A DNA stretch of 64,000 nt from Rhizobium leguminosarum (lineage in GTDB: Bacteria > Pseudomonadota > Alphaproteobacteria > Rhizobiales > Rhizobiaceae): NCBI RefSeq assembly GCF_001652265.1, contig NZ_LWBS01000294.1, positions 5,200 through 69,199 of the forward strand. Reading direction: 5' to 3'. The notes beneath the pieces were generated by a model, which saw only the letters and a program-made list of their open reading frames with translations, was not told the origin of the DNA and ran no database searches. Both the position numbers and the translations under genes were made by a program. This document shows positions 26,342 to 64,000 of the stretch, piece after piece. Position 1 is the stretch's first letter, and every line of letters begins with the position of its first letter.

Positions 26342-28132
26342 ATGTTGGGATTTGGCGCAGGCGCCGATGCAAGGGCCGTTCTCGAAGCGATGAGCAAGTC
26401 TCAGGCGATCATCGAGTTCAAGCTGGACGGTACAATCATCACCGCGAACGAAAACTTTTGCCGGGCGCTCGGTTATCAGCTTTCCGAAATCGTTGGTCAA
26501 CATCATCGCCTCTTTGTCGATCCGGCTGAAGCAGCCAGTTCCGACTACAAAGACTTCTGGGCAAAACTGGCGCGCGGCGAGTTCGATCAACGGCAATATA
26601 AGCGCATCGGCAAGGGCGGCACGGAGGTCTGGATCGAGGCCTCCTACAACCCGGTCTTTAGCGGGGGCAAGCCGTATAAGGTCGTCAAATTCGCGACCGA
26701 TATCACCGCGCAGAAGCTCAAGGCGGCCGAAGATAGCGGTAAGCTGAACGCCATCTCGCGCGCCCAGGCAGTCATCGAGTTCACTCCAAAAGGCGATATT
26801 CTCAACGCAAATGAGAATTTCCTGACGACACTCGGCTTCGAGCTGGCGGAAATCCAGGGCAAACATCACTCGATGTTCTGTGAGCCAAGCTATAGCAACA
26901 GTGAAGATTATCGTCGGTTCTGGACGAGGCTTGCCGCGGGAGAATTTGTTGCGGATGAGTTCTTGCGCATCGGCAAGGGCGGCAAGAAGGTCCATATCCA
27001 GGCATCATACAATCCGATCTTCGACATGAACGGCAAAGTGTTCAAGGTCGTCAAATTCGCGACCGATGTCACCACGCGCGTCGGAAATGTCGACCAGCTC
27101 GCGGGAGCGCTAAGGGCTTTGTCAGAGGGCGATCTGACGCAGACCATCGCCATGCCCTTCCTGCCCGCCTTGGAGAAGCTGCGCGCTGATTTTAACGACG
27201 CTTCATCCAAGCTTCGCGTTACATTGCAGACAATCTCGCAGAACGCTGGCGCCATCGCTGCGGCATCGCAACAAATACAATCCGCCTCGAACGATCTGTC
27301 CAAGCGTACCGAGCAGCAGGCTGCTTCCGTCGAGGAGACGGCCGCAGCGCTGGAGGAGATCACAACCACCGTCGCTGATTCCAGTTCCCGCGCCCAGGAA
27401 GCAGGGCAGCTTGTTCGCAAGACCAAGGAGAACGCGGAGAATTCTGGCAACATTGTCAGTCAAGCCGTGGACGCGATGGGCAAGATCGAAAAGTCCGCCG
27501 GCGAGATCGCCAATATTATTGGCGTGATCGACGAAATCGCATTCCAGACCAATCTTCTGGCGCTCAATGCCGGTGTTGAAGCGGCCCGGGCCGGCGACGC
27601 TGGCAAGGGCTTCGCCGTCGTCGCTCAGGAAGTTCGCGAACTCGCCCAGCGATCGGCCAAGGCGGCAAAGGAGATCAAGGAGCTGATCAATGCCTCGAAC
27701 GAACACGTCAAAAGCGGTGTCACATTGGTTGGTAACACCGGCAAGGCATTGCAGGAAATCGTGACCCAGGTCGTCCAGGTCAACGGTAATGTCGGCGCCA
27801 TCGTCGAAGCCTCCAAAGAGCAGGCAACGGGGCTCAAGGAAATCAACACCGCCGTCAATACGATGGACCAGGGCACACAGCAGAATGCCGCCATGGTCGA
27901 GGAGACGACGGCCGCGGCGCATAGCCTTGCCAAGGAAGCCGATCAGCTCTTCGATCTCCTCGGTCAGTTCAACATCGGGACAGGTGCCGGTGCACCTCGC
28001 GCCGTCCCGGTTGCAGCCGACCGGCATTTGCGGGCTATGCCGTCGCCAGCCCGTCAGATGACGGCCAAGATTGGCCGAGCATTCAACGGGAATGGGGCGC
28101 TCAAAGGCGGCGACAGCTGGGAGGAGTTTTGA
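26342..28132 (+). CDS. Soluble methyl-accepting chemotaxis protein with two PAS domains
   Basis: Cytosolic chemoreceptor (596 residues); no membrane helix. PAS1 is at about 12-118 and PAS2 at about 135-242. They are close copies, each ending YNP(V/I)F...KVVKFATD(I/V)T, and at DNA level they share an identical 24-base stretch (26678-26701 and 27044-27067). A HAMP-like segment (about 245-300: GALRALSEGDLTQTI) leads to the MA signalling coiled coil with the hairpin tip DEIAFQTNLLALNAGVEAAR. The last residues are DSWEEF, fitting the x-W-x2-F tail that tethers CheR/CheB. Such PAS receptors sense redox, flavin or heme-linked signals, but no cofactor residue is evident here. GGAGG stands five bases before the ATG. 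Translationally coupled to cheW. Confidence 0.95.
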   Translation: MLGFGAGADARAVLEAMSKSQAIIEFKLDGTIITANENFCRALGYQLSEIVGQHHRLFVDPAEAASSDYKDFWAKLARGEFDQRQYKRIGKGGTEVWIEASYNPVFSGGKPYKVVKFATDITAQKLKAAEDSGKLNAISRAQAVIEFTPKGDILNANENFLTTLGFELAEIQGKHHSMFCEPSYSNSEDYRRFWTRLAAGEFVADEFLRIGKGGKKVHIQASYNPIFDMNGKVFKVVKFATDVTTRVGNVDQLAGALRALSEGDLTQTIAMPFLPALEKLRADFNDASSKLRVTLQTISQNAGAIAAASQQIQSASNDLSKRTEQQAASVEETAAALEEITTTVADSSSRAQEAGQLVRKTKENAENSGNIVSQAVDAMGKIEKSAGEIANIIGVIDEIAFQTNLLALNAGVEAARAGDAGKGFAVVAQEVRELAQRSAKAAKEIKELINASNEHVKSGVTLVGNTGKALQEIVTQVVQVNGNVGAIVEASKEQATGLKEINTAVNTMDQGTQQNAAMVEETTAAAHSLAKEADQLFDLLGQFNIGTGAGAPRAVPVAADRHLRAMPSPARQMTAKIGRAFNGNGALKGGDSWEEF

Positions 28133-28605
28133 TGGCGTCCATATCCAAAAATCGCGATGGACGCACGTCTCTCGAAATCATTGCATTCCAATTACATGGT
28201 CAGAGCTTCTGTATCGAAACCACCTCCATTCGAGAGATACGTGGATGGGCGGCTTCGACGCCCATCCCGCACGCGCCGCCGGAAATGGTCGGCATCATTA
28301 ACTTGCGAGGCGTCGTCATTCCCACCATCGATTTATGTCGCAAGCTGGGGATGCCGTCGTCGGAAGCGACCGAACGCAGCGCAATCGTGGTCGCGGAAGT
28401 TCACGGCAAACCGATCGGCCTTATGGTGGATCAGGTCACCGATATGCTTTCGATCAACGCCGATGATCTGCAACAGGCTCCAGAGATTGTCAGTTCGCCG
28501 GACCGCTCATACTGTGAAGGAATTATCACTCACCAGTCTGGGATGATTTGCTTCCTCAGCTTGACCAGGATGTTCACTGACGATGACGAAGCATTGGCCG
28601 CTTAG
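28132..28605 (+). CDS. cheW: Chemotaxis coupling protein CheW
   Basis: Adaptor (157 residues) that links chemoreceptors to the kinase CheA. Typical blocks: IAFQLHGQSFCIETTSIREIRG; PHAPPEMVGIINLRGVVIPTIDL; IVVAEVHGKPIGLMVDQVTDML; CEGIITHQSGMICFLSLTRMF. The ATG overlaps the chemoreceptor stop (TGATG). No CheA, CheR or CheB gene is nearby, so this pair must plug into a chemotaxis complex encoded elsewhere. Confidence 0.95.
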   Translation: MASISKNRDGRTSLEIIAFQLHGQSFCIETTSIREIRGWAASTPIPHAPPEMVGIINLRGVVIPTIDLCRKLGMPSSEATERSAIVVAEVHGKPIGLMVDQVTDMLSINADDLQQAPEIVSSPDRSYCEGIITHQSGMICFLSLTRMFTDDDEALAA

Positions 28606-28756: not shown

Positions 28757-29590
28757 TCACATCTTGCTCCGGAAGCCTTCCAGCAGCCAGGGATGCAGCA
28801 CCTTGCTGGCGGCCAGGATATCGCCCTTCCCCTCGACGGCTGCGCCGGAAAAACGGGTGACGATGCCGCCCGCCTCTTCGACCATCAGTGCCGAGGCGCC
28901 GAAATCATGGATCGCGAGCCCGTCCTCGAAGAATCCGTCCAGGCGGCCGCAGGCGACATAGGCGATCGATAGTGCCGCCGAGCCGAGGCGGCGCACACCC
29001 GCCGTATTGGCCATCAGGCGTTTGACGGCTTCGAAATAGGTCGCTTCCGCAACTGCCGTGACCTGGCCAGGGATCGGCAGCCCGGCGCCGACGAGCACAT
29101 TCTCGATGTCGCCGACATCGGCACAGCGGATACGCTCGCCGTTCAGATAGGCGCCGCCGCCGATTTCGGCGCTGAACAGCTCGTCCTGCATGGCGTCATA
29201 GACGACGCCCATGACGAGCCTGCCGCTTTCGACGATCGAGATCGTCATGCCGAAATGCGGAAGGCCCCAGGCGTAATTGGTCGTGCCGTCGATCGGGTCG
29301 ATGTAGATAACAGGCGTTTCCGGACCCGCCGTGCGGTTGCCGACGGCTTCCTCGCCCTGGATGGCATAGTCCGGGAAGGCCTTCGTCATCTCGTCGACGA
29401 TGACCCGCTCGACGGCGACATCGATTTCGGTCTGATAATCGCGCGGGGCCTTGGCGAGCATTTCTGCCGATGTTCGCCGTCGCAGGGAGCCGCGAGCGGT
29501 TTCGCCCGCCTTCAATACCGTTTCGGCAAGCACGACGAGGCGGGACGAGGCGGTCGGGGAAAGACGCGCGGAAATCGGGGAAGATGTCAT
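28757..29590 (-). CDS. Inositol monophosphatase family protein
   Basis: Mg-dependent phosphatase of the IMPase/FBPase superfamily (277 residues). Metal-binding residues are seen in IQGEEAV (Glu of the GEE motif) and in YIDPIDGTTNYAWG, the invariant D-P-I-D-G-T. The usual second motif WDxAAG is altered to IHDFGASALMVEEAGG, keeping the Asp. It removes phosphate from inositol, histidinol or a sugar phosphate; the substrate cannot be chosen. Last gene of the minus-strand ten-gene unit beginning with the LacI gene, 103 bases after the PfkB kinase gene, so it may work on a phosphorylated intermediate of the same pathway. Confidence 0.9.
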   Translation of the reverse strand: MTSSPISARLSPTASSRLVVLAETVLKAGETARGSLRRRTSAEMLAKAPRDYQTEIDVAVERVIVDEMTKAFPDYAIQGEEAVGNRTAGPETPVIYIDPIDGTTNYAWGLPHFGMTISIVESGRLVMGVVYDAMQDELFSAEIGGGAYLNGERIRCADVGDIENVLVGAGLPIPGQVTAVAEATYFEAVKRLMANTAGVRRLGSAALSIAYVACGRLDGFFEDGLAIHDFGASALMVEEAGGIVTRFSGAAVEGKGDILAASKVLHPWLLEGFRSKM

Positions 29591-29693
29591 GAGAAAAGTC
29601 CGGATGCTGCTGATATGACGGAGTGAATCGCGAGGAGCCCATCCCGTCGCAGAGGCTGATGATGGTTTTATGAAGCGCGCCTATGCCGAGCGG

Positions 29694-30587
29694 CTATCTC
29701 AGGATCGCCCCAAGCTCGGAAATGGTCGGAAACGCCTTTCTTGTACCATGTCTTGAGACGGTGATGGCTGCGGCTGCAACTGCGTGTTCGATGGCAAGCC
29801 TGTCCAGCCGCTGTCCGCGCAGCGCGCAGGATGCAAGTGCTGCGGCCATGAAGGTATCGCCTGCGCCCGTTGTATCCACAACATCGCAGACGTGGGCGGG
29901 CACTTCGATTCTATCGTGTCGGTTCACGAGCGTCGCGCCGTCGCCGCCCAGCGTCAGGACGATTTCACGCAGGCCGCGGCTCAGGAGATATTCGGCAGCG
30001 TCCCTACCCGTCGTTCCCGTCAGGGCCTGCGCCTCGCCCTTGTTGAGGAAGGCGATGTCGATCAGATCCCAGAGATCGGAGAAATAGGAGCGCACCGGCG
30101 AGGGATTGAAAGCGGTGACCATGCCGATCGCTCTCGCATGCTCGAGAATGTCGCGCGTCGCCCGGTCGGAGAGGTTGCCTTGTAGTATCATCAGATCGCC
30201 GGAACCGGCCGTCGAGAGGATACGACTGACATCGGAGAGGGACAGGCTTTGCGCCGATTCCGTCGTCGTGACGATGGCATTTTCGCCGCCCGGCAGCCGG
30301 AAGATGATCGAGACGTCGCTCGATGCATCTTCCATTTCGATCAGTTCGCTGCGAAGCGGCTCGTCCGCGAGGTAATGGCGTATCGTATCGGCCCTCGCAT
30401 CCCTGCCGACGGGCGCCACCAGCGTTGTCGGAACGCCGCAGCGGGCCATGACGACCGCCTGGTTCGTGCCCTTGCCGCCGAGATCGCTGCCCCCGGCATT
30501 GCCCAGGATGGAGGCGCCGATGACGGGAAGTTCGGAGACGGCGATGGTTTCGTCGATGGCGACGTTACCGATTATGTAGGCGCGCAT
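29694..30587 (-). CDS. PfkB-family carbohydrate kinase (ribokinase-like)
   Basis: Cytosolic sugar or nucleoside kinase (297 residues). N-terminal signature GGSDLGGKGTNQAVVMAR (glycine-rich substrate side) and C-terminal signature VVDTTGAGDTFMAAALA with the catalytic Asp in GAGD. Length and the lid segment (NAIVTTTESAQSLSLSD) fit ribokinase-like enzymes. It sits between the TenA-like and the phosphatase-like genes in the ABC-transporter catabolic unit and probably phosphorylates the imported or processed sugar. Substrate unknown. Confidence 0.93.
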   Translation of the reverse strand: MRAYIIGNVAIDETIAVSELPVIGASILGNAGGSDLGGKGTNQAVVMARCGVPTTLVAPVGRDARADTIRHYLADEPLRSELIEMEDASSDVSIIFRLPGGENAIVTTTESAQSLSLSDVSRILSTAGSGDLMILQGNLSDRATRDILEHARAIGMVTAFNPSPVRSYFSDLWDLIDIAFLNKGEAQALTGTTGRDAAEYLLSRGLREIVLTLGGDGATLVNRHDRIEVPAHVCDVVDTTGAGDTFMAAALASCALRGQRLDRLAIEHAVAAAAITVSRHGTRKAFPTISELGAILR

Positions 30588-30611
30588 GCATCCGCTTTCG
30601 CAAAGTGGGGC

Positions 30612-31259
30612 TTAAAGGTAAGGCGCATCGTGAAAATCGACCTCGAGCTGCATCGCCCGGCCGAAGATCGCGCTGAGCCGCGCTTTTTCATCCTCTTCAA
30701 GCGTTTCTCCTGCCATGTCGAGTTCATTCTTCAGCCATTGCGCCTGGGCGGCGAAATTCGGATCGATATGCAGGTCGACCCATTCCTTCAGCAGCGGATC
30801 GCTGATTTGACGGGTCGCCGCTTCCTTCGACCAAGTCCAATACATCCACTCGGCCGCAAACATGGCCGCCACCGTGTCGAGGAAGCCGCCCTGGCGGGCA
30901 ATCTCCAACATGCCGGTGCGAAACGCCTCGACTTCGGCGATGCCGGTATCGAAGGACGAGGGATCGATGCCGCGGCTGGCGAAGGTACGCTCGAAATAGG
31001 TGATCTGCTCGTTGGCAAGCGCGTCGAGAACCGCGATCAGCCAGCGCTTCTGCGGCACCGTCCTGGCGGTCGCCGCCGCATAGGCAAAGATCGAGATAGC
31101 GCTGTCGACGAAGGCGCCTTCATAGACGAGATAACGTTCGAAAGCCGCCTTGCTCAGCCTGTCGTTCTTGACGTCCTCGACGAAGCGGTGGCTCAGCATC
31201 GTCTGGAAGACGGCGTCGTTCTCGTGCAGGATGCGGGCCGAAAGGCTCTCTGCCGCCAT
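30612..31259 (-). CDS. TenA-family protein, Glu-type (no active-site Cys)
   Basis: All-helical protein of the TenA/thiaminase II fold (215 residues), with LVYEGAFVDSAISIFAYAAA, ITYFERTFASRGI and the C-terminal AIFGRAMQLEVDFHDAPY holding the conserved Glu. At the place of the usual PC(x)W motif with the nucleophilic Cys the sequence reads FAAEWMYWTW, so Cys is replaced by Glu as in the TenA_E subgroup. TenA proteins hydrolyse aminopyrimidines in thiamin salvage; TenA_E members act on amino- or formylamino-pyrimidines. No thi gene is nearby, so it may act on a different amine in this pathway. The ATG at 31259 is used because it lies two bases from the previous stop. Confidence 0.87.
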   Translation of the reverse strand: MAAESLSARILHENDAVFQTMLSHRFVEDVKNDRLSKAAFERYLVYEGAFVDSAISIFAYAAATARTVPQKRWLIAVLDALANEQITYFERTFASRGIDPSSFDTGIAEVEAFRTGMLEIARQGGFLDTVAAMFAAEWMYWTWSKEAATRQISDPLLKEWVDLHIDPNFAAQAQWLKNELDMAGETLEEDEKARLSAIFGRAMQLEVDFHDAPYL

Positions 31260-31261
31260 GC

Positions 31262-32104
31262 TCAGCCCTCCAGTCCCGGTTCGGCGGCCGCCCGGAAGGC
31301 GCGCACCCGCTCGACGTCGACCGGGTTCCACCAGACTCCGCCGTGCTTCAGCGAAGAGGCGACGATGACGCCGTTGGTGCGGCTCAGAATATCGACGATA
31401 TTGTCCTTGTTGACGCCGGAGCCGACGAGCAGCGGCAGGTGCGTCGCCGCCCCGATCTCCTCGATCTCCTCCATTGTTGCCGAATTGCCGGTCCGCTGGC
31501 CGGTGGCGATAACGCCATCGGCATCGAAGAAGGCGAGGTCGCGCGTCAATTCCTGGATCGAGCGGTCGGCGACAATGGCGTGACTGCCATGCTTGACGTG
31601 GCTGTCGGCGAAGACCTTGATATGTTCGGCTCTCAGCAGCGAGCGATAACGCATGGCCTCGGCCGCCCTGCCCTCCATGAAGCCTTCATTGGCGACATAG
31701 GCATTGGCCCATTGATTGACGCGGATGAATTTGGCGCCACCGGCCATGGCGATGGCGAAGGCGGGGATCGGCGCGTTGGCAAGCACGTTGACGCCAAGCG
31801 GAATGCCGGCCGCGCGCGCGATTCGATCGGTGACGACGGACATGAAACCGGTCGTCTCCGAGCCGATATCCTCGGGCTTCGAGAATGGCACGTCGCCGTG
31901 ATTTTCGATGATCAGCCCATGCAGGCCGCCTTCCACGCAGGCTTCGGCGTCGCGCATGCACGCGTCGTAAATCGCATCCATCGCAGCCCCCCGGTAGCGC
32001 GGCGCGCCCGGAAAGGCCGGGCAATGGATCATGCCGATCAGAACCTTGTCCCTGCCGAAGATATCCCTGACGGCGTTGGACGACCTGTCCGAAATTTCCT
32101 GCAT
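31262..32104 (-). CDS. BtpA/SgcQ family protein
   Basis: TIM-barrel protein (280 residues) of the BtpA family. The family start VLIGMIHCPAFPGAPRY is clear; GLIIENHGDVPFSKPEDIG, IPLGVNVLANAP, FIRVNQWANAY and PLLVGSGVNKDNI are further conserved blocks. BtpA was named for photosystem I assembly in cyanobacteria, but SgcQ and many others sit in sugar or nucleoside operons and have no proven reaction; phosphate- or nucleobase-binding aldolase/nucleosidase-like roles have been proposed. The ATG at 32104 follows AAGGGAA. In the same operon as the TenA-like and kinase genes. Confidence 0.88.
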   Translation of the reverse strand: MQEISDRSSNAVRDIFGRDKVLIGMIHCPAFPGAPRYRGAAMDAIYDACMRDAEACVEGGLHGLIIENHGDVPFSKPEDIGSETTGFMSVVTDRIARAAGIPLGVNVLANAPIPAFAIAMAGGAKFIRVNQWANAYVANEGFMEGRAAEAMRYRSLLRAEHIKVFADSHVKHGSHAIVADRSIQELTRDLAFFDADGVIATGQRTGNSATMEEIEEIGAATHLPLLVGSGVNKDNIVDILSRTNGVIVASSLKHGGVWWNPVDVERVRAFRAAAEPGLEG

Positions 32105-32139
32105 GTCATTCCCTTTCCAATTCCTGCCGCGCGCTGACA

Positions 32140-32913
32140 TCACGCCTGCTTTTCGGTGAGCCAGCCGAGGATATTCTTCCAGAGCCGGCCGTAGCCTTCC
32201 CATTCGCAGAAAGCGGGCGAGAGCCAGTGCGGGCCGATATCCGACGTCCAGGCCGCCGTCCGCCCGGTGCCATGCGTGCCGACGACGAGCAGCGGATGGC
32301 CGCCCTGATCCTCAGGCAGGCGTGCGACGATCTCGACATCGGCGCGGTCGCGCACTTCGACCTCGTTGACGCCGAGAAGCACGGGCCAGGCGCCTTCGAG
32401 ACCCTGCATCGTCGGATGTCCCGGCTTCACCACTTCGGCAACGGTGCCCTCGGGGATTTCGACGCGGTCGTCATAAGGCAGGCAGGTGACGGGCAGCGTG
32501 TCTTCGACGGGCGTGCGCCGCCAGCGCGCCTTGCCGTCGATGCCCTGGAAAGAGAAGTATCCACCGACCATCAGCAGGCCGCCGCCCTTTTCCACCCACG
32601 CCTTCAGAAGCTTCAGCCGGTTCGGCACAGTGCGCGAATGCAGCCACACATCCGGCGGCAGCAGCAGCGAGTTGGCGCCGATATCGGAGAGAATGATGGC
32701 GTCGTACGCCTCGAGCCCCGCCATATCGAAGGGGAACTTCTCCACCGCCTCATGCGCCGGCATATAGGTGAGCTCGAAGGCGCTGCCGGCGAGTGCTTTC
32801 ACCAGCGGTTCGGCGCCGAGATGGAAGGTGACGCTGCCGAACTGATCGAAGCCTTTGTAATGGGTGGCGGAGCTGACCCAGCTCTCGCCGACAAGGAGGA
32901 TTTTCTTGGTCAT
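32140..32913 (-). CDS. Glutamine-amidotransferase-like / ThuA-fold protein (DUF1355-like)
   Basis: Cytosolic flavodoxin-like protein (257 residues). It begins KKILLVGESWVSSATHYKGFDQF, a family-specific start, with YDAIILSDIGANSLLLPPD, GGGLLMVGGYFSFQG (nucleophile-elbow position, but no Cys) and GTHGTGRTAAWTSDIGPHW near the C-terminus. Lacking the Cys of true class I amidotransferases, it is not expected to use glutamine. ThuA-like proteins of this fold occur in sugar catabolic clusters (for instance ThuA of the rhizobial trehalose operon). Role here unknown. A 117-base gap separates it from the phosphotriesterase-like gene. Confidence 0.83.
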   Translation of the reverse strand: MTKKILLVGESWVSSATHYKGFDQFGSVTFHLGAEPLVKALAGSAFELTYMPAHEAVEKFPFDMAGLEAYDAIILSDIGANSLLLPPDVWLHSRTVPNRLKLLKAWVEKGGGLLMVGGYFSFQGIDGKARWRRTPVEDTLPVTCLPYDDRVEIPEGTVAEVVKPGHPTMQGLEGAWPVLLGVNEVEVRDRADVEIVARLPEDQGGHPLLVVGTHGTGRTAAWTSDIGPHWLSPAFCEWEGYGRLWKNILGWLTEKQA

Positions 32914-33030
32914 GGTCTGCGTTTACCTGTGATCGATTGAATGGATGGAGCTAAAGGATGTCGCGCAAAAGTGTGCAGCGGTTTTGCGATAACGACATGC
33001 GTAAAACGAAGACCTAAATCGCGACGCGCT

Positions 33031-34110
33031 TTAGGTCCCGGCATGAAAGACGCGGCGCGGATTGCTGCGCATCATCTCGTCGAGAGCCGTCCTGTCGAGG
33101 CCGTGCCGCTGAAGACGGGGAAGGAAGTGGCGAAGGATGTAGGCGTAGCCATTGCCGCCGTAATGCGTCAGCATCATCTTCAGAAAGACGTCGTGCGACA
33201 GAAGAATCCGGTCGAGATAACCGGCCTCGACGAGACGCACGATCGCGCGCGCCGCCTCCTCGTCGCTCGGGCATTGCACCTGCTGGTCGGCATAGAAGAA
33301 ATCCATGCCGATCATGTCGTATTCGATGAAGGCGCCGCGCTCCGCCAGCTCGCTCTGATAGGCGATGTCGTCATGCGACGGGTTCATGTGGCAAAGCACG
33401 GTGTGGCTGAGATCGGCTCCCTCCTCGGCGACCACGTCGAGCACCCGGTGGCCGAGGCGGAACCAGCCCGGCAGATGCACCATCAGCGGAAGCCCGGTCA
33501 GCACCTGTGCCCGGGCAGCGCCGCGCAGCGATTTTTCTTCCTCGGCGATGAAATCCGAGGAGACGCCGATCTCGCCGATCAGGCCGATCCTGACGCCGGT
33601 GCCGTCGACGCCTTCCCTGGCCTCGCGGACAATTTCCCGTGCGATGTCATCGACGCTCATTGCCGCGACGCCTTCCGGATGTGAGGAGCCTAGGTAATAA
33701 CCCGCCCCCATCACGATGTTGAGACCGGATGCTTTCGAGATGCGCTGGAGCGCCAGCGGATCACGGCCGATGCCCTTGCAGGTCGGCTCCACCACCGTGC
33801 GGCCGCCCGCCGTGGCGAAATCCTTGAGCTCGGTCACTGCCAGATGTTCGTCATCTAGCGTGATATTGTGCTTGTTGACAAAAGGATCCTGCCTGAGTTC
33901 GCCGAGGATCTCCATGCAGACGAAGCTTTCGGTGAGATATTGCCGTTCCGGCGTCTTCGGCGCATGCCACCAGCAGCGGCAGTCGTTGAGGATATGCTCG
34001 TGCATCAGCGTCACGCCGAGCGCATCCGCCGAAACCGGGCCGGTAACGGTCATCACCTTGCCGGAGCGGACATGCGCTTCGGACAGGCTTTCTGTTGTCT
34101 GCTCGCTCAT
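33031..34110 (-). CDS. Phosphotriesterase-like metal-dependent hydrolase
   Basis: Amidohydrolase-superfamily TIM barrel (359 residues) with all metal ligands: LMHEH (H-x-H), a bridging Glu in RIGLIGEIGVSSDF in place of carboxylated Lys, LMVHLPGW (His), VLCHMNPS (His) and LLSHDVFLK (Asp). This Glu form is usual in PHP/PTE-like lactonases of sugar pathways rather than in organophosphate hydrolases. It probably opens a sugar lactone or cleaves an acyl/phospho ester derived from the imported compound. AAAGGAT lies upstream of the ATG, and the gene follows the permease by four bases, so it is tightly tied to the transporter. Confidence 0.92.
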   Translation of the reverse strand: MSEQTTESLSEAHVRSGKVMTVTGPVSADALGVTLMHEHILNDCRCWWHAPKTPERQYLTESFVCMEILGELRQDPFVNKHNITLDDEHLAVTELKDFATAGGRTVVEPTCKGIGRDPLALQRISKASGLNIVMGAGYYLGSSHPEGVAAMSVDDIAREIVREAREGVDGTGVRIGLIGEIGVSSDFIAEEEKSLRGAARAQVLTGLPLMVHLPGWFRLGHRVLDVVAEEGADLSHTVLCHMNPSHDDIAYQSELAERGAFIEYDMIGMDFFYADQQVQCPSDEEAARAIVRLVEAGYLDRILLSHDVFLKMMLTHYGGNGYAYILRHFLPRLQRHGLDRTALDEMMRSNPRRVFHAGT

Positions 34111-34114
34111 CGTT

Positions 34115-35119
34115 TCATCCTTTCCTGCCCAGCCGGAAATGGAAATTGGCCGTAAAGATGCGCGTGTTCAGCCAGATTGCCACGAGGATGATGGCGCCGG
34201 TGACGATCTGAGTGAAGAACGGCGATATGTGCATCAGGATCAGGCCGTTGCCGATGACGGCGATGGTCAGCGTGCCGAGCACTGTGCCGAGGATGGTGCC
34301 GCGTCCGCCCATCAGCGACGTTCCGCCGAGCACCACGGCCGCAATCACCTGCAGCTCGAAACCGACGGCGGCATTGGACGAGCCGGAGCCGAGACGAGCG
34401 GCGATCAGCAGGCCGGCGACGGCGCAGGCGATGCCGGAGATGATATAAACCGAGGCGATGATCCATTTGGCCGGCATGCCGACACGCCGCGCCGCCTCTG
34501 CATTGGAGCCGACCGCCACGACCTGCCGGCCATATTTGGTCGCGGTGATGACGACATAACCGAAAATGGCGATGATGACGGCGATGATCGCCGGGATCGG
34601 GAAGCTGAGGATTTCGCCCCGACCGAGCGCGAAGAAGCCCGGCGCATCCTTGATCGGGATGGAATAGCCCTGGGTCAGATAGAGCGCCAGGCCGCGCAGG
34701 ATCGAGAGACCGGCAAGCGTGACGATGAAGGCCGGGATGCCCTGATAGGCGGTAAACCAGCCCTGAACCAGCCCCATGAAGCCGCCGAGCACGATCATGC
34801 CGATAACCACGGACGGCCAGGGAACACCCATCGCCATGATGATCGCCGCGACCGCATTGACGAGCGCGACCTGCGAGCCGACCGAAAGATCGATGCCGCC
34901 GGTGATGATGACGAAGGTCATGGCTATGGCGACGATCAGGATGGGGGCCGCCTGCCGCACGATGTTCAGGATGTTGCCGAGCGTGAAGAAGGTTTCGCTG
35001 CCGATCGAGAAGAAGATCATGCAGGCCAGGAAGAAGATGGCGATCGACAGGACCTGTGCGTGTTCGCCGAAGAAATCGGCGACGCGCGAGCCGTGACCGC
35101 GTTCCGTATAAGCCGTCAT
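34115..35119 (-). CDS. Sugar ABC transporter permease (RbsC-like)
   Basis: Inner-membrane permease (334 residues, eight to ten helices). Family fingerprint ITGGIDLSVGSQVALVNAVAA with VGSNAEAARRVGMPAKWIIAS as the ATPase contact, then GTSLMGGRGTILGTVLGTL. Works with the single-domain ATPase encoded just upstream (start and stop overlap by four bases). Carbohydrate class uptake inferred from family; ribose-, fructose- or polyol-type ligands are common. Confidence 0.94.
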   Translation of the reverse strand: MTAYTERGHGSRVADFFGEHAQVLSIAIFFLACMIFFSIGSETFFTLGNILNIVRQAAPILIVAIAMTFVIITGGIDLSVGSQVALVNAVAAIIMAMGVPWPSVVIGMIVLGGFMGLVQGWFTAYQGIPAFIVTLAGLSILRGLALYLTQGYSIPIKDAPGFFALGRGEILSFPIPAIIAVIIAIFGYVVITATKYGRQVVAVGSNAEAARRVGMPAKWIIASVYIISGIACAVAGLLIAARLGSGSSNAAVGFELQVIAAVVLGGTSLMGGRGTILGTVLGTLTIAVIGNGLILMHISPFFTQIVTGAIILVAIWLNTRIFTANFHFRLGRKG

Positions 35120-35937
35120 TGTCTGGCTCCTTCACCGACGATCAGCCTGACGAGATCTTCGAGGTTGGTGCTACCGATCTGCCGTTCGGCGACCTTCGTG
35201 CCCTCATACATCACCGCGATACGGTCGCAGACCCGGAAGAGGTCCTGCAGCCGGTGGGTAATGAGGATCACCGAAACTCCGTTCGCCTTGACGCGGTTGA
35301 TCAGGGCCAGAACCGCCTCGACCTCGGCGACGGCAAGTGCCGATGTCGGCTCGTCCATGATCAGCACCTTCGGCTTGAAGGAGGCAGCGCGCGCAATGGC
35401 GATCGCCTGGCGTTGCCCGCCGGAGAGCTGGGCGACCTTGCTGGTCAGCCTGGGTATGCGGATCTCAAGCGAGTCCAGCATCTTGCGGGCTTCCGCCAGC
35501 ATCGTCCTGGTGTCGAGAAACGGCCCGCGGCTGAGTTCGCGGCCGAGGAAGAGATTGCCGACGACATCGATATGATCGCAGAGGCTGAGATCCTGGAAGA
35601 CCATTTCGATGTTCCGCCCACGCGCATCCGCGGGGCCGGAGAAGCGGACCTCCTCACCTTCCATGGTGATCGTACCGGCATCGGGAATGTAGGTTCCCGA
35701 GATGATTTTCGTCAGCGTCGATTTGCCGGCGGCGTTATCGCCGACGAGGCCCAGGCATTCGCCGGGGAAGATGTCGAGATCGACGCCGCGCAAGGCCTGG
35801 TGCGAGCCGAAGGACTTGCGGATACCGCGTAGCGAGATGCGCGGGTCGGATCGGGTGCCGCCGGATGTTCCGGTTCCGGAGGATGCGACCCCTCCGGAAC
35901 CGGCGGCAGCGATGTCACGCTGTCCGCTTTCGATCAT
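35116..35937 (-). CDS. Sugar ABC transporter ATP-binding protein, single-domain (FrcA-like)
   Basis: Cytoplasmic ATPase (273 residues). It has only one NBD, unlike RbsA but like FrcA of the rhizobial fructose system. Walker A GDNAAGKST, Q-loop VFQDLSLCDHIDVVGN, signature LSGGQRQ, Walker B VLIMDEPTSALAVAEV and H-loop ILITHRL are all present, so it should dimerise. The first 30 residues form a low-complexity Gly/Ser/Thr leader (AAAGSGGVASSGTGTSGGTR) not needed for the fold; an internal start is possible. Overlaps its neighbours on both sides by four bases. Confidence 0.93.
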   Translation of the reverse strand: MIESGQRDIAAAGSGGVASSGTGTSGGTRSDPRISLRGIRKSFGSHQALRGVDLDIFPGECLGLVGDNAAGKSTLTKIISGTYIPDAGTITMEGEEVRFSGPADARGRNIEMVFQDLSLCDHIDVVGNLFLGRELSRGPFLDTRTMLAEARKMLDSLEIRIPRLTSKVAQLSGGQRQAIAIARAASFKPKVLIMDEPTSALAVAEVEAVLALINRVKANGVSVILITHRLQDLFRVCDRIAVMYEGTKVAERQIGSTNLEDLVRLIVGEGARQ

Positions 35938-36887
35938 TTGAAGACGGCCCGGTACGGCTCGACATTCTCCTTGGTCACGATGGTGATCGGTACCGAGATC
36001 GTCTTGGTGACGGCTTCGCCGGCCGAGGCCTTGACGAGCGCGTCGACGGCGGCACCGCCCATTGCGGCCGGATCCTGCTGGACGACGGCGACGACGAAGC
36101 CGGCATCGATGCCGGCAATGGCTTCGGCCGTCAGATCCCAGCCGAACACCTTGATCTTATCCTGCTTGCCCTGGCTCTGGACAGCGGCGATCGCCCCCAT
36201 CAAGGCCGGCTCGCCGGTGGCGTAGATCGCGGTCAGGTCGGGATTGGCGGTGATCAGGTTTTCAGCCGCCGCAAGGGCGTTGTCCTGGATGTTCTGCCCG
36301 TCGACGACGCCGGCCAATTCAATGCCGTCGACGCCTTTCAGGGTCTTCTCGAAGCCGTCCTGGCGGATGTTCTGGATGAACGAGTTCAGCGCGCCGACAA
36401 CGCCGAGCTTGGCCTTGCCGCCCATGTTCGCCTTGACGTAGTCGAGGAAGTATTTGCCCATGTCGGCGCCGGCCGCGGCATTGTCCACGCCGATCTGCGC
36501 CTTCTGCGGACCATCAGGCAGGATGGCGTCGATGGCGACGACGGGAATGCCGGCATCGGCCGCCTGTTTGACGGCCGGCATGATGCCGTTGACGTCGATC
36601 GCGACGACGGCAAGGCCGGAGACCTTTTCCTGGACGTAGGTTTCGATGGCGCTGTTTTGCGCCGTCGTCTCGTTGTTGGCGTTGAAGATCACCAGTTTGA
36701 CGCCGGCGGCATCGGCCGCCTTCTGGGCGCCCTCATTCATCTGATTGAAGAAAAGCGCCTGCTGGTTGATCTGCACCAGCGCGATGGTCTTCTTTTCCTG
36801 TGCCGCAGCGCCGGACAGGCCGATGAAGGTCAATGCCGTGAAGCCGGCGGCTGCGATCATCGTTCGTCTTGTCAAATTCAGTGTCAT
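35934..36887 (-). CDS. Sugar ABC transporter substrate-binding protein (RbsB-like)
   Basis: Periplasmic binding protein (317 residues). Leader MTLNLTRRTMIAAAGFTALT with a twin-arginine-like RR and cleavage near GAAAQ. Two lobes of the type I fold: IALVQINQQALFFNQMNEGAQKAA; VVAIDVNGIMPAVKQAADAGIPVVAID; IYATGEPALMGAIAAVQSQG; VFGWDLTAEAIAGIDAG. The Asp after VVAID and the aromatic FF near the N-terminus fit sugar binding. AGAGGATGAGAAC precedes the ATG at 36887. First transporter gene after the LacI regulator (37-base gap). Confidence 0.93.
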   Translation of the reverse strand: MTLNLTRRTMIAAAGFTALTFIGLSGAAAQEKKTIALVQINQQALFFNQMNEGAQKAADAAGVKLVIFNANNETTAQNSAIETYVQEKVSGLAVVAIDVNGIMPAVKQAADAGIPVVAIDAILPDGPQKAQIGVDNAAAGADMGKYFLDYVKANMGGKAKLGVVGALNSFIQNIRQDGFEKTLKGVDGIELAGVVDGQNIQDNALAAAENLITANPDLTAIYATGEPALMGAIAAVQSQGKQDKIKVFGWDLTAEAIAGIDAGFVVAVVQQDPAAMGGAAVDALVKASAGEAVTKTISVPITIVTKENVEPYRAVFK

Positions 36888-36924
36888 GTTCTCATCCTCT
36901 TTTGGTTTTTGACGTTGCTGATTA

Positions 36925-37947
36925 TTATTTCGCAGGCGGCGCAACGGAGTTCCGCACCACGATTTCGACAGGCAGGAGTTCTTCCGAGGCGGATGGTTTC
37001 CACTCGTGCCAATTGGTTTCCAGAAGCAGTTCCAGCGATCGCCTTCCGATCTGGCGCACCGGCTGGCGGATGGCCGTCAGCGGCGGTGCGAAGAGATGAA
37101 GCGGACCGACATCGTCAAAGCCGATGACCGAGATGTCATCAGGGATCGAGACGCCGTGGCTTCTGAAGACCTCGACCAGACCGATGGCGATCTCGTCGGA
37201 GCTGGCAAAGATCGCCGTCGCTTTTCGATTGCCGGAGAGATAGTCAAGCGCGGCGGCACGGCCGTATTCGATCGTATATTCGCCGGCATAACGATCGGCG
37301 CGGGCCTCGCCGCCATGCTTTTCCCTGAGCGCCTTCAGCAGGCCGTCATAACGCCTGCGGGCGCTGATCATGCGCTCGTCGCCGCCGATGAAGAGGACAT
37401 GGCGATGGCCTTGTTCGGCCAGGTGCTGGCCGGCGAGATAACCGCCCTGCTCGTTGTCGCAGAACAGCTTCGGCGCCTTCGAATCGGGAATGTCCTCGTC
37501 AACGATGATGACCTTGCCGCTGCCGTTGATCAGCGCGGCAAGCGCGCCGTCGTCGGGGTGGTTGGTGACAAAGATCAAGCCGTCGACGTGATTGCGCTCG
37601 ATCAGCTGCAGATATTCGATCTCGCGCCCCGGCCGATTGAGCGTGGCGTGCAAGGAGACCGCCAGCTTCTTTTCATCGGCCGCCTGCTCGACGGCGGCGA
37701 CGAGGGTCGCGAAGAAGGGATTGGCGATATCGGGCACGACGAGGCCGATCGTGTCCGAGCGCCCCCTACTTAAGCGACGCGCATGCGGGTTCGGCCGGTA
37801 GTTCAGCGTCTTGATCGCATCCTCGATACGCTTCTTGGTCTGAAAAGGAAGGTCGAGGCTTCCGTTGACGAAACGCGACACGGTGGTGACCGACACGCCC
37901 GCAGCCGCCGCAACATCCTTCAAGCTTGGTGTCGTTCCCTTGGCCAT
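36925..37947 (-). CDS. LacI-family transcriptional regulator of the ten-gene catabolic unit
   Basis: Repressor (340 residues). N-terminal HTH: SLKDVAAAAGVSVTTVSRFVNG with the hinge NYRPNPHARRLSRGRSDTIG, then a periplasmic-binding-like effector domain (VVPDIANPFFATLVAAVEQAA; GHRHVLFIGGDERMISARRRYDG; ISVIGFDDVG). First gene of the minus-strand unit, immediately downstream of a large symmetrical operator at 37960-37990, so it is probably autoregulated and controls the transporter and enzymes behind it. The effector is presumably the imported sugar or a phosphorylated product. Confidence 0.94.
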   Translation of the reverse strand: MAKGTTPSLKDVAAAAGVSVTTVSRFVNGSLDLPFQTKKRIEDAIKTLNYRPNPHARRLSRGRSDTIGLVVPDIANPFFATLVAAVEQAADEKKLAVSLHATLNRPGREIEYLQLIERNHVDGLIFVTNHPDDGALAALINGSGKVIIVDEDIPDSKAPKLFCDNEQGGYLAGQHLAEQGHRHVLFIGGDERMISARRRYDGLLKALREKHGGEARADRYAGEYTIEYGRAAALDYLSGNRKATAIFASSDEIAIGLVEVFRSHGVSIPDDISVIGFDDVGPLHLFAPPLTAIRQPVRQIGRRSLELLLETNWHEWKPSASEELLPVEIVVRNSVAPPAK

Positions 37948-37959
37948 TGACTGGACCTG

Positions 37960-37990
37960 TTGTAAAGCGGTTTAGTAAACCGCTTTACAA
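37960..37990. promoter_or_regulatory. Nested double LacI-type operator
   Basis: A perfect 31-base palindrome: TTGTAAAGCGGTTTA, one central G, TAAACCGCTTTACAA. Each arm contains its own LacI-like half-symmetrical site (TAAAGCGGTTTA at 37963-37974; TAAACCGCTTTA at 37976-37987, TAAA-xCGx-TTTA). It starts 12 bases before the ATG of the LacI gene. Binding by the adjacent regulator is inferred. Confidence 0.75.
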
Positions 37991-63907: not shown

Positions 63908-64000
63908 CACCAGTGGAGGAAGGTTCCACCCAGATAATTGTCGATAGGTCTGGTAGCTGACGAGCGGCTTGGCAGGGTAACCGGCCGGGCCGAAGCCTCG
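63884..64000 (-). CDS. Unidentified reading frame entering from the window edge (C-terminal part)
   Basis: On the minus strand an open frame runs from the right edge to a TGA at 63884-63886: 38 residues, with segments GFGPAGYPAKPLVSYQTYRQ and LSGWNLPPLVLRAVGAH. It begins exactly where the GGDEF homology on the plus strand ends. It could be the end of a transposase or other inserted gene, but I do not recognise the family and no terminal inverted repeat can be checked within the window. Confidence 0.3.
   Translation of the reverse strand, partial: RGFGPAGYPAKPLVSYQTYRQLSGWNLPPLVLRAVGAH

Follow-up and report, generated by a model that had tools for sequence, protein, structure and literature searches.

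In a 64,000-nucleotide stretch of Rhizobium leguminosarum DNA (contig NZ_LWBS01000294.1, positions 5,200 to 69,199; hereafter the window), ten open reading frames free of internal stops follow one another on the minus strand from position 37947 down to 28757, and nine of the ten genes belong to a widely conserved cassette that includes a BtpA/SgcQ-family protein. Here, I show that this is a conserved catabolic cassette common to two bacterial classes, and that in Rhizobium it has a single private operator. As to function, the reading that I favour, tentatively and at slightly less than even chances, is that the cassette takes up and degrades, under regulation, a conjugate of ribosyl type that carries an amide or amine part, and that BtpA works on its sugar once phosphorylated; the nitrogen part of the conjugate is probably N-heterocyclic. 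The observed basis consists of the conserved gene set, the private twin operator, the families of transporter and enzymes, and the intact catalytic residues of the phosphotriesterase (PTE) family hydrolase and of the kinase. A preliminary description of the same DNA had proposed a ten-gene catabolic unit performing import, lactone opening, hydrolysis and phosphorylation; the catabolic unit, import, hydrolysis and phosphorylation are supported, whereas the ten-gene boundary and the lactone opening are not.

Conservation of the cassette

Aligned BtpA proteins were used to scan one genome per species in GTDB, and the relatives considered here are the best 80 of at least 555 stretches encoding a BtpA relative, each flank being at most 10 kb long. 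They comprise 42 loci of an enterobacterial block (L071-L112: Pantoea, Klebsiella, Raoultella, Enterobacter, Erwinia, Rahnella and others, L112 being labelled Martelella alba) and 38 loci, mainly of Alphaproteobacteria (L113-L150, including L148 from Salinicola and L126, labelled Enemella). Neighbours less than 1.5 kb apart were joined into a cluster, with identity thresholds of my own choosing, and the loci whose cluster lies near the locus end (L100, L102, L106, L114, L116, L123, L124, L129, L141 and L149) were omitted, leaving 70 uncut loci; the analyses of kinase orientation and of distance correlation took all 80 wherever the gene was found.

BtpA is accompanied by LacI, the substrate-binding protein, the ATPase, the permease and the ribokinase-type kinase in 70/70 uncut loci, by PTE in 69, by a GATase1-like gene in 63, by TenA in 58 and by an M20 amidohydrolase in 56. 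Among the 39 uncut enterobacterial loci, LacI, binding protein, ATPase, permease, PTE, PfkB kinase, BtpA and M20 are each present in every one, and 35 of them have TenA and 33 the GATase1-like gene; the 31 others all have LacI, binding protein, ATPase, permease, PfkB kinase and BtpA, with PTE and the GATase1-like gene in 30 each, TenA in 23, M20 in 17 and the IMPase gene in 6. The joint occurrence of PTE-like, BtpA and TenA_E genes beside an RbsB-type transporter, which the preliminary description had put forward as a test, is thus strongly positive in the 80 relative loci. Protein distances of seven partners follow those of BtpA with r of 0.79-0.91 in each group, a comparison made among cassette genes with no outside control.

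On 63 plasmid records of PLSDB at least 80% of the unit lies in one place, the records listed being 94-95% identical and mostly from R. leguminosarum and near species; because of these plasmids and of the recurrence in Enterobacterales, the gene set is far beyond chance. BtpA of this type (E up to 1e-70) occurs in 83 of 148 Rhizobium genomes, 53 of which have a form of at least 81% identity and 30 a form at 57-62%. Across the phylum, PTE at E up to 1e-60 is found in just 10 of 398 genomes, the window's own included, and the unit is therefore patchy.

Variants were also seen. In a form of the cassette at L037-L040, L044 and L070 (BtpA 58-61%) no LacI was found; L037 has a cupin-domain HTH regulator upstream (Pfam), and L070 a gene annotated as cupin-domain at the same place. 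Some loci have another cassette next to the first, with a transporter of LsrB/RhaS type and a deacylase of ArgE/DapE type: it is present in L123, L124, L129 and L141, where it has a second PF07090 gene (and in L124, by eye, its own LacI), and likewise in L065, L071, L072, L079, L081, L108 and L109.

The twin operator

Twelve bases before the start of lacI ends a perfect 31-bp inverted repeat, TTGTAAAGCGGTTTA-C-TAAACCGCTTTACAA, which contains two LacI-family sites TAAANCGNTTTA, 13 bases apart with one base between them. Allowing up to two mismatches, this twin pattern occurs once, and no further twin operator was found, in the window's assembly (8.18 Mb in 472 contigs, 93% complete). An exact single site lies no more than 200 bases upstream of lacI in 35 of the 37 non-enterobacterial loci whose upstream DNA is long enough, random stretches taken from these loci giving an expectation of 0.52. 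The twin operator is present in 52 of the 148 Rhizobium genomes (a control with the reversed pattern gave 0), all of which fall among the 53 with the close BtpA; in 52/52 it is on the same contig as that gene, 4.1-7.5 kb away, and it was found in 0/30 of the Rhizobium genomes in which the 57-62% form is the only one. The enterobacterial loci do not have it (0/42 against 1.52 expected), and their operator therefore differs.

One predicted repressor, one operator and one operon would go together in Rhizobium and, judged by this pattern, the targets of the repressor lie in the unit. Internal terminators or sigma-70 promoters within the unit did not rise above shuffled sequences. The proposal of a single LacI-controlled catabolic unit is supported.

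Gene content of the window

The ten genes, with the order, spacing and families first given to them, are confirmed from the open reading frames, Pfam and NCBIfam (Table 1), with one change of name: the supposed ThuA-like gene belongs to PF07090, a different family. All ten exceed the Pfam gathering score (Inositol_P, PfkB, TENA_THI-4, BtpA, GATase1_like, PTE, BPD_transp_2, ABC_tran, Peripla_BP_4, LacI), and NCBIfam recognises a family for every protein but the PF07090 one, for which it has no model. By coordinates, gaps of 37 bases separate lacI from the binding-protein gene, 4 the permease from PTE, 117 PTE from GATase1-like, 35 GATase1-like from BtpA (taking 32104 as the BtpA start), 2 BtpA from TenA, 24 TenA from PfkB and 103 PfkB from IMPase, and there are overlaps of 4 bases between the genes for binding protein and ATPase and between those for ATPase and permease. 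To judge from their sequences the ten genes are real and intact and, since models of known reactions are missed, none looks as if it merely duplicated an enzyme already described.

Table 1. Positions in the window of the operator and of the ten genes
Feature	Position	Strand	Basis
Twin LacI-type operator	37960..37990	-	perfect 15-bp inverted repeat, 1-bp centre
LacI-family repressor, at the head of the operon	36925..37947	-	Pfam; 70/70 uncut relative loci
RbsB-type (CUT2) substrate-binding protein	35934..36887	-	Pfam, NCBIfam, closest structure 5hsg
Single-domain ABC ATPase	35116..35937	-	Pfam, NCBIfam
RbsC-type permease	34115..35119	-	Pfam, NCBIfam
PTE-family binuclear metal hydrolase, bridging Glu	33031..34110	-	Pfam, alignment, closest structure 3k2g
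PF07090 GATase1-like protein	32140..32913	-	Pfam, alignment
BtpA/SgcQ-family TIM-barrel protein	31262..32104	-	Pfam, NCBIfam, structure model
TenA_E-like hydrolase	30612..31259	-	Pfam, NCBIfam, alignment
Ribokinase-type PfkB kinase	29694..30587	-	Pfam, alignment, structure matches
IMPase-family phosphatase, outside the conserved unit	28757..29590	-	Pfam; relatives

Transporter and kinase

The solved structure closest to the binding protein is 5hsg (392 bits), which matches the binding protein of the Klebsiella michiganensis cassette at 601 bits. Of the ribose contacts of E. coli RbsB, the window's protein keeps F40, F41, D114, R166, D240 and Q260, and has A for N38, V for N89, A for R115 and G for N215; F239 is replaced by W. 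With six contacts kept and four replaced, it would still clamp a sugar, but in a larger pocket. The ATPase (273 aa, one matched stretch) scores 202.8 bits against the two-domain RbsA model, below its cut-off of 745. Import of a sugar-like nitrogen compound, as first suggested, is a reading that these data support.

The kinase scores 188.5 bits against the ribokinase model TIGR02152, below the cut-off of 299.65. It keeps D16, G42, K43, N46 and D255 of E. coli RbsK and has N138 for E143, this Asn being invariant in 22/22 aligned cassette kinases; D16, GGKG-NQ, D255 and E143 are sugar-contact or catalytic residues of RbsK. The kinase of the K. michiganensis cassette finds a match of 589 bits, along 289 residues, in the structure 3i3y, whose title is 'Ribokinase in Complex with D-Ribose from Klebsiella pneumoniae'. 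A second ribokinase, over the model cut-off, is encoded elsewhere in the window's genome, as is another TenA (see below), and the cassette copies therefore look specialised. Phosphorylation is likewise upheld as a reading.

Could the unit be a plain operon for D-ribose, a rare pentose or a pentonolactone, in which transporter and kinase perform the essential steps, PTE opens the lactone and amide-type hydrolases are carried along as passengers? The closest functional labels are indeed ribose transport and ribokinase, 3i3y is a D-ribose complex and E. coli ribokinase is equally close in structure, and the PTE family has lactonases among its members (model NF045706); yet the genome has its canonical ribokinase elsewhere, the cassette kinase misses the ribokinase cut-off and has replaced E143 throughout, four RbsB contacts are changed, and TenA or M20 is present in 69/70 uncut loci, all of which makes such an operon unlikely.

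Hydrolases

In PTE the metal ligands are H37, H39, E180, H212, H241 and D307, this His/His/Glu/His/His/Asp set being invariant in 12/12 aligned sequences and agreeing with the PTE/amidohydrolase signature (HxH, bridging Glu or Lys, His, His, Asp). The closest solved structure is 3k2g (592 bits), followed by 9efa, a 'phosphotriesterase-related protein' (234 bits), and Pmi1525 (227 bits); against the phospho-furanose lactonase model NF045706 the protein reaches 70.9 bits, below a cut-off of 630, and with such scores and neighbours the lactone opening first envisaged finds no specific support. Mouse PTER, whose top structural match is 3k2g, is described as an N-acetyltaurine amidase hydrolysing an N-acyl bond (PMC11374699). 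The cassette PTE is homologous to PTER and 3k2g over its full length and shares the binuclear site with Glu, whereas the two arginines named for substrate contact in PTER appear not to be conserved (9efa alignment, with an inferred numbering offset). N-acetyltaurine hydrolysis was accordingly rejected for it, and PTE should therefore hydrolyse some other amide, a lactam or an ester.

In TenA, E137 is invariant in 13/13 aligned sequences, with Glu also aligned in 1z72 and 1rtw. The position is that of the thiaminase catalytic Cys, where a Glu is the mark of TenA_E; the protein would thus be of that type, and the active-site motifs noted at the outset for PTE and TenA hold in the alignments of 12 and 13 sequences. 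Against the salvage model TIGR04306 it reaches 43.1 bits, below the cut-off of 130, and a separate, better-scoring TenA (137 bits) is encoded elsewhere in the genome. Salvage of degraded thiamine, with TenA and M20 recovering its pyrimidine, is highly improbable in view of these scores and of the CUT2 transporter and ribokinase, for which it has no place, even if a TenA_E adjoining an M20 amidohydrolase resembles the pair YlmB and TenA. Regulation by thiamine was rejected as well: Rfam gave no thiamine pyrophosphate riboswitch at gathering scores in the 64-kb window, its one match being to a group II intron.

M20 enzymes stand beside TenA or instead of it, and the idea that the two are strict alternatives was dropped, as both occur together in many loci. 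They are of the ArgE/DapE type in the enterobacterial locus tested, of the hydantoinase/carbamoylase type in two rhizobial loci tested and of a third type, TIGR01891, in one locus (Paracoccus aminophilus). BLAST E-values among the three subfamilies are 1e-4 to 0.1, which suggests different origins for the M20 enzymes of the cassettes. The best clue to the substrate comes from here: because amide-type hydrolases were repeatedly recruited, it would contain amide-type bonds. Hydrolysis as a step is, in this sense, a supported reading.

The GG-containing turn of the PF07090 protein, which I take as its elbow, reads GGY(F/Y)SFQG in 13/13 aligned sequences. The nucleophile elbow of class I glutamine amidotransferases is G-x-C-x-G, and the amidotransferase nucleophile Cys was not found at its usual place in these 13; the gene is absent from 7/70 uncut relatives.

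Among further relatives, a TRZ/ATZ deaminase-type gene adjoins the unit in L036. In L042 (13871-19501) the BtpA unit lacks PTE and GATase1-like genes; downstream of it lie PxpA and PxpB/C-like genes, of 5-oxoprolinase type, and a gene that by eye resembles a biotin carboxylase.

The BtpA protein and the proposed route

BtpA scores 220.1 bits against TIGR00259, above its cut-off of 153.4, and 184.3 bits against the photosystem I biogenesis model NF045918, below 400. Its structure model (pLDDT 82) matches MJ1099, ThiE, HisA/HisF and RPE, in Foldseek and VIA match lists that are full of generic TIM barrels. The family occurs in 5/14 control genomes (E. coli, Synechococcus, Thermus, Thermotoga and Methanocaldococcus), over the cut-off in three, and is not known to have a settled reaction. 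The window's genome has a second, distant BtpA (30%; L050, contig C44) with an FGGY kinase, a gamma-glutamyltranspeptidase and, by eye, a DeoR-type regulator nearby.

Under the conjugate reading favoured here, the ligand would free LacI from the twin operator (1) and the conjugate would be imported by the RbsB-type ATP-binding cassette (ABC) system (2); the PTE-family metal hydrolase, with TenA_E and/or M20, would break amide and C-N bonds in the nitrogen-bearing part (3), the ribokinase-type kinase would phosphorylate the sugar at its equivalent of ribose O5 (4), and BtpA, as a TIM barrel of the phosphate-binding type, would isomerise or cleave the phosphorylated sugar, a glycoside or aminal, to a pentose phosphate (5). 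The numbering of steps 3 to 5 implies no sequence of events, and none of the five steps is given to the PF07090 protein.

Two other routes were considered. BtpA might be a deglycase of Amadori or N-ribosylated amino compounds, from which M20 and PTE would trim an acyl group and whose ribulosyl moiety the kinase would phosphorylate; a PfkB-type fructoselysine kinase offers a precedent, and the BtpA fold is near HisA/PriA, which perform an Amadori rearrangement on phosphoribosyl substrates. Since the fructoselysine kinase model NF007321 is nevertheless far from its cut-off (43.4 bits against 247) and TenA is left unexplained, I hold this to be decidedly unlikely. It is quite improbable, too, that the BtpA branch of this cassette is a new kind of glycosidase or isomerase of the phosphoribosyl bond, with a HisA/ThiE-like barrel, in a modified-nucleoside route whose kinase is antisense-controlled in most relatives: nucleosides with an aminomethyl, acylated or carbamoyl group, such as modified or ring-damaged pyrimidine or deazapurine nucleosides, would lose nitrogen groups to TenA_E and M20/PTE, the kinase would make the 5-phosphate, BtpA would free the sugar phosphate, and kinase levels would be set in most relatives by antisense transcription within the same operon.

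An antisense kinase gene

The kinase gene is antisense to BtpA, inside the cassette, in 73/80 relatives, with 23-46 bases (median 27) from start to start. Of these 73, 72 have an upstream gene that runs the same way as BtpA (binding protein 42, GATase1-like 29, permease 1), the remaining locus being at a contig end. The co-directional kinase after TenA, as in the window, is found in 7/80, namely five R. leguminosarum-type loci, L119 and L122. Enterobacterial loci have their genes for LacI, ATPase, permease, PTE, GATase1-like protein and M20 in the opposite direction, so that the interrupted run there is binding protein-BtpA-TenA. An opposite-strand gene between the genes of an operon makes what is called a noncontiguous operon (PMC7154746), and the antisense-kinase loci have, by their predicted genes, this layout. 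As the starts of kinase and BtpA share one short gap, the kinase promoter probably lies inside btpA in these loci. The antisense kinase, seen in two bacterial classes, would offer a natural case for noncontiguous-operon regulation.

Where the unit ends

The IMPase gene is 93-97% identical in 5/80 relatives, all R. leguminosarum-type loci, with a doubtful sixth in L121 (31% identity, opposite strand in the cluster); weaker matches (33-36%) in L113, L118, L126 and L127 are 4-8 kb beyond BtpA and outside the cluster. IMPase was for this reason rejected as a pathway member and appears to be a local addition of R. leguminosarum-type cassettes, so that the boundary at ten genes falls and the paradox of a pathway with both a kinase and a phosphatase, raised in the preliminary description, dissolves.

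Chemoreceptor and CheW genes (26342-28605, named after the same genes in strain WSM1274) converge on the cassette. The chemotaxis genes behind IMPase adjoin the unit in WSM1274, but not in strain 3841, and the transporter preceding the unit also differs between the two. The group II intron match, to domain RF02003 of Rfam, is at 63911-64000 and is cut by the window end.

Comparison with known systems

The impression that the genes cannot be mapped to a described pathway is shared here: none with this gene set was found in the literature by gene names, PDB codes or locus tags, subscription papers being thinly covered. A published phenotype was also sought by locus tags (the pRL9 and SMb numbers being guessed), with no paper on the cassette; a transductant in pRL90234, a pRL9 permease gene that may or may not belong to the cassette, is reported to show no significant loss of competitiveness (PMC4495286).

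The BtpA gene being common in Rhizobium and the cassette shared with Enterobacterales, the compound may be widespread in soil, in plants or in the gut. Here a BtpA branch is found in a closed, single-operator regulon, and structures exist for Klebsiella kinase and binding protein (3i3y, 3ikh, 5hsg), so that the BtpA reaction is directly testable; finding the compound would give a function to the long-orphan BtpA/SgcQ family.

With the E. coli rbs operon (rbsDACBK-R) the cassette shares a LacI-type regulator, a CUT2 transporter and a ribokinase-type kinase, but it has no RbsD among its ten genes, a single-domain ATPase, extra enzyme genes, and an altered kinase and binding-protein pocket. The E. 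coli sgc operon (sgcXBCQAER) likewise has a BtpA/SgcQ protein together with a hydrolase of the zinc-peptidase type and uptake coupled to phosphorylation, in its case by a phosphotransferase system instead of an ABC transporter plus kinase; it is without PTE, TenA and PF07090 genes, and all its annotated functions are putative.

The salvage by YlmB, an enzyme of M20 type, and TenA is not known to include a sugar kinase, BtpA, PTE or CUT2 transporter. According to PMC10470507, FAMP, a thiamine breakdown product, is handled by TenA_E or by the deformylase YlmB plus TenA; the likeness thus lies in a deformylase and a TenA working on an acylated aminomethyl pyrimidine, and the difference in a cassette TenA far below the salvage model.

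Pseudouridine catabolism by PsuK and PsuG proceeds through a PfkB kinase followed by cleavage of the phosphoribosyl bond. No PsuG is among the ten genes, and BtpA would be a different family for the cleavage step; the likeness is one of logic only, pseudouridine kinase structures being among the structure matches of the cassette kinase.

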